A stretch of 64,000 bases of DNA from Allobacillus halotolerans (GTDB lineage: Bacteria; Bacillota; Bacilli; Bacillales; Alkalibacillaceae). Position 1 is the stretch's first letter, and each line of letters opens with the position of its first letter. The translations under genes and the position numbers were made by a program. Shown here in pieces: positions 22,970 through 25,925 of the stretch. The notes beneath the pieces were generated by a model. The model was not told the origin of the DNA, ran no database searches, and worked only from the letters and a program-made list of their open reading frames with translations. The DNA lies in NCBI RefSeq assembly GCF_018967645.1, contig NZ_JAHLZF010000005.1, positions 8,057-72,056 on the forward strand. Direction: 5' to 3'.

Positions 22970-23500
22970 CTATCTCTTTATCAATACGTACTGCTTATCT
23001 TCTAAAAAGAATGTTTCGCAAAGATGGTTTATGTCTTTTAACTTTAAATGTTTTCCAAATTGAAATGTGCTAAGGTTAATAGCTACATTTTTACTGTCAT
23101 CTTTTTCTTTACCTTCATGTCCATCCCAACAAGAATATATTTCCATAAAATTCCCTTCTAATAAGTTTTCGTCAATATAATTAAAAAGTGTCTTGATAGA
23201 TTTATGGTGACTTGCTGTATTGTTAGTGTGTAAGTATCCTTCTACTTCATATACAAAAGAAGTAGTAAATTTTTCTCTTACTGGTTCGTACCCAGAAACT
23301 AAATTAAGAACATCAATTCCACTTGCATCTTCTTCTGTTTCATACACCTTAACGAGCTTAGACCCGTTATTCTTCTTCAAACGTTTTTCTAAACTTAGTC
23401 CTTTTAACTTCAATTCCGATAGAGGTTTATATGTTGGGTTCCTACCAAATGTACCAGTAGGAAGTTCTATATTAGCCCCTATGAAGTGATTTAAAGTCAT
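22970..23500 (-). CDS. Hypothetical protein
   Basis: 176 residues, no signal or membrane segment, mixed charged composition; segments include TYKPLSELKLKGLSLEKRLK and MEIYSCWDGHEGKEKDD. AAGGGGG precedes the ATG at 23500 with good spacing. It stands alone between the toxin locus and yidC. I recognise no family; it may be accessory. Confidence 0.6.
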   Translation of the reverse strand: MTLNHFIGANIELPTGTFGRNPTYKPLSELKLKGLSLEKRLKKNNGSKLVKVYETEEDASGIDVLNLVSGYEPVREKFTTSFVYEVEGYLHTNNTASHHKSIKTLFNYIDENLLEGNFMEIYSCWDGHEGKEKDDSKNVAINLSTFQFGKHLKLKDINHLCETFFLEDKQYVLIKR

Positions 23501-23740
23501 CTATAAACCCCCTTTTCATAACCTTATTTTACCATAAAATAGGCAATCCCTTGTTAAACAAAATGGCTCCGTTTGTTGAACATGTTATAGAAGTCATACT
23601 TTATCTCCCGATAAATTGTACACCGTTATTTAATTTTTTCATGACCATGCAGGCTTTCGACCATATCCAAAAGGCGTACCCGAACAACCATTTGTGGACC
23701 TATATGAATGCAGTGTTACTTGTATAAGCCCCCATACCTT
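23501..23740. other. Intergenic stretch with a possible gene remnant
   Basis: A short plus-strand frame at about 23640-23730 reads MTMQAFDHIQKAYPNNHLWT and stops after eight more codons. It has no ribosome site and looks like the tail of a lost gene; nothing else is visible. Confidence 0.35.
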
Positions 23741-23782
23741 AAAAAATCAGGGTGCTAAATCCATTACGATTTGCACCCCTAA
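23741..23782 (-). terminator. yidC terminator
   Basis: On the minus strand the stem GGGGTGCAAATC / GATTTAGCACCC is followed by TGATTTTTT. Confidence 0.82.
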
Positions 23783-23795
23783 TTAATAAGCTAAT

Positions 23796-24584
23796 TTATG
23801 TTCCGTGGATGGTTTTCTTAATAATCAACGTCTGAACGATTACAAATAAACCACTCACCGCCCAATATAACGGTAAGGCTGCTGGTACATTTAACGAGAT
23901 GATCCCGATCATAATCGAAGAGATTATCGCCATAAACGCCATTTGTTTTCGTTGGGGCTGCTCCAAGCCAATCAAACTGACTTTTGCTTGCAGATAGTAA
24001 ATAAGAACAGCCACTAAAACGAATAAAATATCTGTTTCTCCGAGACTAAACCATAGAAATGATTGTTCGGCAATTTCAGGTGTGCGCCTAATCGCATAAT
24101 AAAAACCAATTAGAATCGGCATTTGAAGGATCATAGGCAGACAACCTGTTACCATTTTCACCGGATTAAAATCATGTTTTTGATAAAGAGCACTTAGTTC
24201 TTTTTGCATACTCAGCCGATCTTCTGGGCTGTTCTTTCCTTTGTACTTCTCTTGTATCGCAGTCATTTCCGGTTTGATCAATGCCATTTTCCCTTGGGAT
24301 TCCTTACTATTCTTCGATTGTTTAATGAAGAATGGCAATAGCGCGAAACGAATGCCTATCGTAATAACAATAATAGCCACCGCGTAATTTCCTTGTAAAA
24401 AAAGAGCAACTTTTTTAATCAAAAGTGACAGCGGATATACAAAGTAATGTGAAAAGAACCCTGTAGATGCACTGTCAACAGGTGTGAAGTTATTGCTACA
24501 CCCGCTCAGTATAAGCAAAAATGACAATAGAAAAATTAAAAAAGAATACTTTCTGAAGAAAGTGAGTAAGCTGTTTTGTTCCAT
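23796..24584 (-). CDS. Membrane protein insertase YidC/Oxa1 (YidC2, YqjG type)
   Basis: The 262-residue insertase has a lipoprotein signal (LILSGC) and five membrane segments. The conserved arginine of the hydrophilic groove is in ITIGIRFALLPFFIKQS, and the cytoplasmic loop MTAIQEKYKGK plus VTGCLPMILQMPILIGFYYA follow. It places proteins into the membrane with or without SecYEG. Its start overlaps an upstream regulatory ORF by 49 bases, and its ribosome site TAAGAGGAGG is locked in a 14-bp stem. That arrangement is the mark of the inducible paralogue in Bacillus (yqjG under MifM). Confidence 0.9.
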   Translation of the reverse strand: MEQNSLLTFFRKYSFLIFLLSFLLILSGCSNNFTPVDSASTGFFSHYFVYPLSLLIKKVALFLQGNYAVAIIVITIGIRFALLPFFIKQSKNSKESQGKMALIKPEMTAIQEKYKGKNSPEDRLSMQKELSALYQKHDFNPVKMVTGCLPMILQMPILIGFYYAIRRTPEIAEQSFLWFSLGETDILFVLVAVLIYYLQAKVSLIGLEQPQRKQMAFMAIISSIMIGIISLNVPAALPLYWAVSGLFVIVQTLIIKKTIHGT

Positions 24585-24904
24585 TCTTGTCCTCCTCTTA
24601 TTTTAAAAATCTGTTTAAAATAAGAGGAATTGTCATCGGCTTTATCGTCTTTTTCATCTATTCTTTTAAACGTCATGATCAGCCATACGACAAACGATTC
24701 ATTGGTTATAATCGGTTTCTCAAATGGATTTATATTAACCTTTGTGCTTTGGTGCTGATTCGTAAACAAATAATCACTGTTGGATAGATGTTGGTTATAA
24801 AGATGGCTGACATAAATTGCACCAAAAGCAATCAACAGAATCCCTAAATATAGATAAAAAGCAGACGCATCAATAAACAACGTGTTTAACAAGTCTAGAA
24901 ACAT
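24536..24904 (-). CDS. MifM-like regulatory nascent-chain leader upstream of yidC2
   Basis: The 122-residue protein has an N-terminal membrane helix (YLYLGILLIAFGAIYVSHL), a linker, then VVWLIMTFKRIDEKDDKADD around residues 72-91. In B. subtilis, MifM stalls its own ribosome at an acidic run after WIRKVFRM; the hydrophobic-basic stretch followed by an acidic run here has the same layout. The codons just after the acidic run form the 5' arm of the hairpin that hides the yidC ribosome site. Stalling when insertion capacity is low would open it. GGAGGTGAGT precedes the ATG. Function is inferred from layout. Confidence 0.82.
   Translation of the reverse strand: MFLDLLNTLFIDASAFYLYLGILLIAFGAIYVSHLYNQHLSNSDYLFTNQHQSTKVNINPFEKPIITNESFVVWLIMTFKRIDEKDDKADDNSSYFKQIFKIRGGQEWNKTAYSLSSESILF
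24591..24627 (-). promoter_or_regulatory. Hairpin sequestering the yidC2 ribosome-binding site
   Basis: Perfect 14-bp arms CCTCTTATTTTAAA and TTTAAAATAAGAGG with a 6-base loop. The second arm on the mRNA contains most of the TAAGAGGAGG site seven bases before the yidC ATG. The first arm lies just past the codons for the acidic run of the leader ORF. Confidence 0.85.
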
Positions 24905-25019
24905 ACTTACTCACCTCCTTTAAATTCTGATAAATAAAAATATTATTAATTATAATTGTACCAAAGATGTATGCCAATGCATACCACTGCAAAAGAGAAA
25001 GTTGCCCAGAACAACCACT

Positions 25020-25925
25020 TTAAATAATTTCTACAGTATTATCTTCAAAATTTAAATTTACAGGTTCACTGGATAAACCTTCTGTGGAACGCTGATTTGT
25101 AACAGGAACATCATCGCCTACCATTTCAAAGCCAAGTTCATCTACCCAAATTTGGCCTGGTCCGTTGAGCAATACGCCAAATGCGATCACTTCACTTTTT
25201 ACTGGAATATCCAATACGACGCTAAAATGATTCCATTCATTTGTTCCCTTAATCGGACGATCCATCATATTATCAAAAGCAAGGACCTCTCCAGAAGAAT
25301 GGTCGATCCGCATCCATAAGCCAGCAGCTTCTTTAACATCTACGCTTTTTACAAATGCAGAAAAACGAACCCGTTCTCCTCGATAGTGGTCTGCCTTAAT
25401 TTGTTGCATCAATGTTGCGAATCCTCGTGCTTTTTCATGTTTTGATTTCAAATAGGCGGCGTAATTTCCACTATGCACAATGTTATTGTCTAATCCGGTT
25501 TCATAATCATATGGTGATTCTCCGGTCATCATCCAACCATTCGGGGTGTTACTCGTTTTATTCACGATGAACTCTCCTTTGCTAACTAATTGTTTAAGCA
25601 ATTTCCGATATTCACTAGGTGTTACGTCGTAAACTTTTTTAAAAGCTCTTGTGAAGGATTCTTGCGACTTAAACTGATAAGTCATCGCAATGTCAATCAC
25701 TCGTTGATCCGTCGTAATTAACTCCCTCGCACTTTGTGTCATCCGCCGCTCTCTCACATATTCAGCAACTGATTTCCCAATGATCTTTCGAAAGACACGT
25801 TGAAAATGGAATCTCGAATAACCTGCATGTTCAGCCAAACGGTTGAGATGCAATGGTTCAGTCAAATATTGTTCAATAAAATTCAATGATCGTTGAATAG
25901 CCTGTTCATGATCTTGATAGGGCAT
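25020..25925 (-). CDS. AraC family transcriptional regulator
   Basis: The 301-residue protein starts with the double helix-turn-helix of AraC/XylS (RLAEHAGYSRFHFQRVFRKI and FKSQESFTRAFKKVYDVTPS, about residues 25-107). The remaining roughly 190 residues form a beta-rich domain with repeated tryptophans (GMRIDHSSGE-like, WNHFSVVLDIP), probably a ligand-sensing jelly-roll-like part. Target genes are unknown. AGAGGTG precedes the ATG. Confidence 0.85.
   Translation of the reverse strand: MPYQDHEQAIQRSLNFIEQYLTEPLHLNRLAEHAGYSRFHFQRVFRKIIGKSVAEYVRERRMTQSARELITTDQRVIDIAMTYQFKSQESFTRAFKKVYDVTPSEYRKLLKQLVSKGEFIVNKTSNTPNGWMMTGESPYDYETGLDNNIVHSGNYAAYLKSKHEKARGFATLMQQIKADHYRGERVRFSAFVKSVDVKEAAGLWMRIDHSSGEVLAFDNMMDRPIKGTNEWNHFSVVLDIPVKSEVIAFGVLLNGPGQIWVDELGFEMVGDDVPVTNQRSTEGLSSEPVNLNFEDNTVEII

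Follow-up and report, generated by a model that had tools for sequence, protein, structure and literature searches.

The closest described counterparts of the locus considered here are leader peptides encoded upstream of yidC genes. In Bacillus subtilis, the 95-residue MifM is encoded upstream of the second yidC gene, yidC2 (yqjG); it carries an N-terminal transmembrane (TM) segment, and a stem-loop masks the Shine-Dalgarno (SD) sequence of yidC2. The arrest residues of this protein are given in the excerpted text of one study as RIxxWIxxxxxMNxxxxDEED (PMC7897499), and the same excerpts describe ApcA of Actinobacteria, a leader that precedes yidC, has a TM segment and carries a conserved arrest sequence at its C terminus. 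CliM of Clostridia, in the excerpts of another report (PMC13183943), is a YidC-monitoring leader upstream of yidC2, with a stem-loop reaching from the 3' end of the leader to the yidC2 start. ApcA belongs to another lineage, and both ApcA and CliM are likened to our locus by description and not by sequence.

In this work, we analyzed a window of 64,000 nucleotides from Allobacillus halotolerans (assembly GCF_018967645.1, contig NZ_JAHLZF010000005.1, positions 8,057 to 72,056 of the forward strand; window positions are counted from its first nucleotide), in which a leader open reading frame (ORF), here called mifM, overlaps the start of a yidC2 gene. It is very likely that this leader is a MifM-type insertase monitor of yidC2 in Allobacillus. 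The first-pass annotation had compared the locus to the MifM-YqjG circuit, and the comparison is supported by homology to MifM, by the place of the leader upstream of a second yidC, by purifying selection confined to the predicted arrest segment and by the register between the predicted stall site and a hairpin. The homology, anatomy, selection, hairpin and register were computed. At the level of sequence comparison, the assignment of the putative leader-yidC2 circuit to a known family is well supported, and the circuit's arrest-segment variant and ribosome type make it a useful test case.

The leader and the MifM family

The mifM ORF (24536-24904, minus strand) has 122 codons, starts with ATG and is preceded by a near-perfect SD sequence (AAGGAGGTGAGTAAGTATG) within a ribosome-binding site at 24905-24919 (AGGAGGTGAGTAAGT before the ATG, minus strand). 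Its 3' end overlaps yidC2, which encodes a YidC/Oxa1 insertase (23796-24584, minus strand; PF02096 at 2.6e-41, TIGR03592), by 49 nucleotides, and the SD sequence of yidC2 (AGAGGAGG, 24591-24598, minus strand) lies 6 nucleotides before the yidC2 ATG. In Kyte-Doolittle profiles with 19-residue windows, hydropathy reaches a maximum of 2.05 at residues 9-27 and 2.02 at both 14-32 and 15-33, windows above 1.6 spanning residues 8-36; a single N-terminal TM helix is thus predicted within residues 9-36 (24797-24880, minus strand). Residues 71-81 read FVVWLIMTFKR and residues 83-91 read DEKDDKADD (24658-24632); both lie in the predicted arrest segment F71-D91 (FVVWLIMTFKRIDEKDDKADD, 24632-24694, minus strand), in which W74 is the aligned tryptophan. 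Both the overlapping ORF with its membrane helix and the hydrophobic-basic stretch followed by the acidic run had been claimed in the first-pass annotation and are present as described. The host has another YidC paralog, spoIIIJ-like, away from yidC2 (G000:C23:103490-104191), which fits what a MifM circuit requires.

Searches of Pfam and NCBIfam gave no model for the leader, and nothing in Rfam matched within 23400-25400. An assignment as FtsL was rejected (E 0.15, 12.5 bits against a cut-off of 22.9). A published survey, as far as its excerpts go, assembled 572 MifM proteins out of 592 Firmicutes genomes, selecting for an acidic window between residues 70 and 100 in which the local charge over 5 residues falls below -0.3 (PMC10987492). 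The Allobacillus leader has the layout of that survey: a yidC homolog directly follows the small ORF, and the N-terminal signal (judged from hydropathy and not with the survey's predictors) precedes 30 or more soluble residues. Its stretch DEKDD (83-87) has a net charge of -3 over 5 residues, or -0.6, counted by hand and not with the survey's program.

Comparison over about 70 genomes places the leader in the MifM family. With a profile built from ten leaders, the best match in the PDB was B. subtilis MifM (3j9w_AZ, E 0.013, residues 2-90 of the 95 in the chain), and the alignment keeps W73 of MifM and the acidic run in the same register, without gaps from W73 to D89. Most of the yidC2-like genes examined in the same order are preceded by a leader, mostly of 90-130 residues, with an N-terminal hydrophobic and an acidic segment. 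These leaders came from 29 loci received as such and 80 that were fetched, the lowest-scoring remainder being left out, and the E 1e-62 cut of the yidC2 search under-samples distant mifM-yidC2 pairs. Among 110 loci besides the window (L004, L036-L144), 13 had no leader by either script (L075, L104, L114, L120, L128, L132, L136-L139, L141, L142, L144), several of them being second YidC copies; the upstream ORF of L070 is not leader-like, and L113 is doubtful. The leader filter passed 86, including the window. L130 and L133 failed its charge filter, and L051, L073, L074, L076-L079, L083, L085 and L097 were excluded solely through the other yidC start taken by the script, leaders being visible there. 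The motif alignment holds 72 leaders, of which 71 have a readable uL22 and two (L086 and L115) an unsure register; in all of the locus counts, loci from the same genus are not independent.

Most leaders align without gaps from the tryptophan, the commonest residues being W[IL]xxxx[KR]RKxxPDDDxD where the window reads WLIMTFKRIDEKDDKADD. Tryptophan is present in 49 of 71 leaders. Methionine stands at the M80 position in only one of the 71, so the arrest residues of B. subtilis do not define the MifM family. The window leader keeps the tryptophan and has leucine for Ile74; it has R81-I82 where B. subtilis MifM has M80-N81, and the charged KRIDEKDDKADD where B. subtilis MifM has RMNSPVNDEEDA. It had been suggested earlier that the stalling sequence differs from that of B. 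subtilis and might show how the arrest motif varies. The difference holds, but such variation is ordinary for the family.

The window also differs from B. subtilis in that the leader overlaps yidC2 and the stem lies inside its coding sequence. The same overlap architecture is found in two MifM homologs, one from Oceanobacillus luteolus (L147) and the other from Priestia taiwanensis (L148), which have the segment KRIDE[KR]DDK and a nearly identical stem, whereas their N-terminal halves have diverged, overall identity to the window leader being 54% and 43-44%, respectively.

Selection, hairpin and stall register

Within the genus, the window leader is 89-90% identical to those of Allobacillus salarius and A. 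saliphilus. Compared with A. saliphilus, nonsynonymous and synonymous codon changes number 12 each in codons 1-62 and 0 and 3, respectively, in codons 63-92, and codons 93-122 are identical in DNA; against A. salarius, the last 30 codons have one nonsynonymous (S93T) and one synonymous change. The ratio of nonsynonymous to synonymous change (pN/pS) against the two species is 0.21-0.23 over codons 1-92, and residues 63-92 are unchanged among the three species while the N-terminal half varies freely. This distribution indicates that the arrest segment, hairpin, SD sequence and yidC2 start are the constrained part and that the membrane half drifts, which it may do if an insertion sensor needs little beyond hydrophobicity. 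The stem and the yidC2 start also fall within the last 30 codons, so conservation of these codons is no evidence that the tail of the leader matters.

The hairpin (24593-24628, minus strand) lies inside the mifM coding sequence, with its 3' arm over the yidC2 SD sequence. It is rich in A and U and pairs 24614-24628 with 24593-24607 around a 6-nucleotide loop, with an outer U-G pair in addition. A perfect hairpin of 14 base pairs hiding the ribosome site had been claimed; the hairpin over the SD sequence was recovered, with a length of 15 perfect pairs and not 14. Its folding energy is -16.9 kcal/mol (z-score -5.84; 0 of 200 dinucleotide shuffles equally stable). Compared with 60 synonymous recodings of the same peptide, the region has a z-score of -2.77, with 1 of 60 as low. 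The SD sequence has a pairing probability of 0.84 against a null mean of 0.57, and 7 of the 60 recodings pair it at least as well; in the window alone, therefore, it is the stability of the stem that stands out, and not the SD pairing. Across 84 loci the median z-score of the stem against synonymous recodings is -2.1 and the median SD pairing is 0.86 versus 0.66, several loci having no stem advantage (e.g. L069, L089, L123, L135, L143). SD-pairing stems of other sequence were found in most relatives.

For the register, the P site was set at the codon 16 residues past the tryptophan, which is D89 in MifM and D90 here (24635-24637, minus strand, the predicted P site being carried over from B. 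subtilis). In the window, the nucleotides that pair with the yidC2 SD sequence lie at +8 to +13 of the D90 codon. Over 68 loci (L051, L069, L086 and L115 excluded), the SD-pairing strand starts at a median of +10 (quartiles 8 and 13), and it touches +3 to +16 of the W+16 codon in 62 of the 68, as opposed to 49% of 2720 synonymous recodings. The leading edge of a stalled ribosome's footprint lies near +15 to +16, and +3 to +16 is the stretch that a halted ribosome would cover. Between lineages the stem varies in sequence, while its location is mostly kept. The spacer from the best 19-residue window to W+16 has a median of 56 in 71 leaders (quartiles 53-58), next to a published MifM median of 54 in the excerpts of the survey (PMC10987492). 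We count this spacing as compatible with a MifM-type circuit and not as support for it.

By analogy with B. subtilis, from which the arrest, the stall codon, the YidC-dependent release and the effect on yidC2 are taken, the leader would be translated from its strong SD sequence, and its N-terminal helix would emerge as a YidC substrate. If insertion is slow, W74 through DEKDDKADD would halt the ribosome, probably while D90 or an acidic codon close to it occupies the P site. The ribosome, once stalled, would cover about the first 8-9 nucleotides of the 5' arm of the hairpin, the part that pairs with the yidC2 SD sequence, and yidC2 could be translated. With sufficient YidC, insertion would pull on the chain and end the arrest, the hairpin would reform and yidC2 would stay off.

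The hairpin might instead act without any arrest of the nascent chain, either by ordinary translational coupling or through temperature or RNA stability, given that the stem is A/U rich and hides the SD sequence and that the 49-nucleotide overlap carries leader ribosomes through the SD sequence into yidC2. We consider this quite improbable. It leaves unexplained both the lack of any residue change in codons 63-92 and the common register of the tryptophan and acidic run; moreover, where the leader stops before yidC2, the SD-pairing strand is still similarly spaced from the acidic codons. Highly improbable, too, is that the leader is a small membrane protein in its own right, for instance a partner of YidC2, with the overlap as plain operon packing. 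Its N-terminal TM helix and an operon position common to relatives would agree with such a role, but the acidic segment is under the strongest selection and the N-terminal half under the weakest, the leader stops of relatives range from 52 nucleotides before to 95 nucleotides after the called yidC start, and the SD-pairing stems hold their position while their sequence changes.

Returning to the MifM-type circuit, several observations weigh against it. The E-value of 0.013 to MifM is modest taken alone and comes from the ten-leader profile, not from the window leader alone. R69, I70, M80 and N81 of B. subtilis are not conserved in this leader, and DEED corresponds in register to D-K-A-D. Covariation is weak in the stem of five close relatives, with one compensatory pair and 208 of 500 shuffles scoring as high, and the S93T change of A. 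salarius breaks one outer pair of the stem. The register fails in 6 of the 68 loci (G321, G052, G230, G293, G313, G246), G321 and G052 being fairly near relatives. By the best hydropathy window, which ends at residue 27, the spacer of the window leader is 63, outside the quartiles, whereas the nearly equal windows (2.02 versus 2.05) ending at residues 33 and 32 give 57-58. Finally, the tip of the host uL22 (G000:C4:37408-37433) reads FRPRAQGRA, with Gln90 and not the Met90 associated with stalling on MifM. Stalling on MifM is reported to depend on uL22 residue 90, and lineages with Gln90 are held unlikely to stall on it efficiently, according to excerpts of the paper (PMC4423224).

The host ribosome and the origin of the leader-yidC2 unit

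The uL22 tip was readable in 79 of 80 genomes scanned. Among the 71 carriers in which both leader and uL22 were read, Gln90 occurs in 21 and Met90 in 50. The Allobacillus host keeps Arg66 of uL4, another contact named in the excerpts of PMC4423224. Its uL4 has valine where B. subtilis has Arg84 (SPQWVGGG versus SPQWRGGG). That the locus is a MifM brought in from elsewhere that has decayed or does not suit its host, and cannot stall the Gln90 ribosome, would agree with its likely horizontal origin and with the host residue, but is scarcely credible given the pN/pS over codons 1-92, the unchanged residues 63-92 in comparison with two other Allobacillus species and the number of carriers with Gln90. 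That the arrest segment is under purifying selection in a host with Gln90 suggests, from sequence, that the segment still works there.

The locus offers a natural test of how an arrest peptide may stay functional as its own residues and the host ribosome both vary. One KRIDE-type leader, that of P. taiwanensis, is found in G286, which has Met90, and others are found together with Gln90, in Allobacillus and in G360 (the O. luteolus leader); one arrest segment can therefore be compared between the two types of ribosome. Tentatively, and with more doubt than confidence, we propose that the MifM family falls into arrest dialects, each adapted to the exit tunnel, and that the KRIDE-type leader, in a leader-yidC2 cassette of about 1.1 kb moving between genera, arrests Gln90 ribosomes that B. 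subtilis MifM should fail to stop, through a different constriction contact (R81-I82 and not M80-N81). Among the titles and abstract openings listed by literature searches on MifM, none dealt with MifM in Gln90 hosts or with transfer of MifM.

A leader residue compensating for Gln90 was considered. Arginine at W+7 is present in 20 of 21 Gln90 hosts versus 28 of 50 Met90 hosts (Fisher P 0.0009, uncorrected, for the best of 24 positions), and with genera collapsed in 13 of 14 versus 17 of 27 (P 0.064). In genus g52, a Gln90 genome (G129) and two Met90 genomes (G230, G293) have one common motif. Compensation by this arginine was not established.

As for the origin of the unit, among the 22 genomes in the family a second YidC with an E-value of 1e-30 or lower was found only in the two Allobacillus; at that threshold the other 20, one of which is 82% complete, have a single YidC. 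In a tree of 38 YidC2 rows, Allobacillus joins G360 and G286 (support 100/99), the placement of G286 being less sure as it has a long branch, and Allobacillus and G360 alone are joined at 98/94, apart from the G360 congeners G321 and G166. A joint tree that includes the SpoIIIJ of 18 genomes, eight of them of this family, groups the SpoIIIJ of Allobacillus with that of the family member G002 (100/98) and the SpoIIIJ of G360 with those of its own congeners (100/99). Identity between Allobacillus and G360 is 71% for YidC2 and, in two comparisons, 60% or 64% for SpoIIIJ. Apart from the reading of the start codon, the G360 leader is the O. luteolus leader L147 and the G286 leader is the P. taiwanensis leader L148.

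The absence of a second YidC elsewhere in the family and the clustering with O. luteolus- and P. taiwanensis-type copies make it likely that the leader-yidC2 unit was transferred horizontally at least once, which is the simplest reading of the sequences. In O. luteolus, across the roughly 3 kb of flank that the loci cover in each direction, only the leader and yidC2 are in common with the 15-35 kb stretch of the window. Unrelated flanks in both relatives were not found: this holds for O. luteolus and fails for P. taiwanensis, where an AraC-type gene precedes the leader. About 100 residues of that gene product are alike at 39%, and its C-terminal domain is different (GyrI-like). Plasmids gave no vehicle for the transfer: in a search that covered 72,556 plasmid records and no phages, no leader was found at E 0.01, and all 28 yidC2-like plasmid matches are below 60% identity.

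Sequence upstream of mifM

A promoter-like TTGGCA-17-TATAAT lies before mifM (24949-24977, minus strand) and rests on an 11/12 consensus match only; eight sites of that quality were found versus 6.4 expected. Neither A. salarius nor A. saliphilus has the same sequence over this stretch. An inverted repeat (GTATGCATTGGCATAC, 24969-24984), listed as terminator-like, overlaps its -35 element and is possibly an operator. The gene upstream (25020-25925) encodes an AraC-type regulator with a C-terminal match to 3-keto-disaccharide hydrolases below the cut-off. Immediately upstream of mifM, in the place of the window's AraC-type gene, A. salarius and A. saliphilus have a gene of the GrpB family (176 residues; PF04229 in A. 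saliphilus), and A. saliphilus keeps the AraC-type gene (95% identical) farther upstream.
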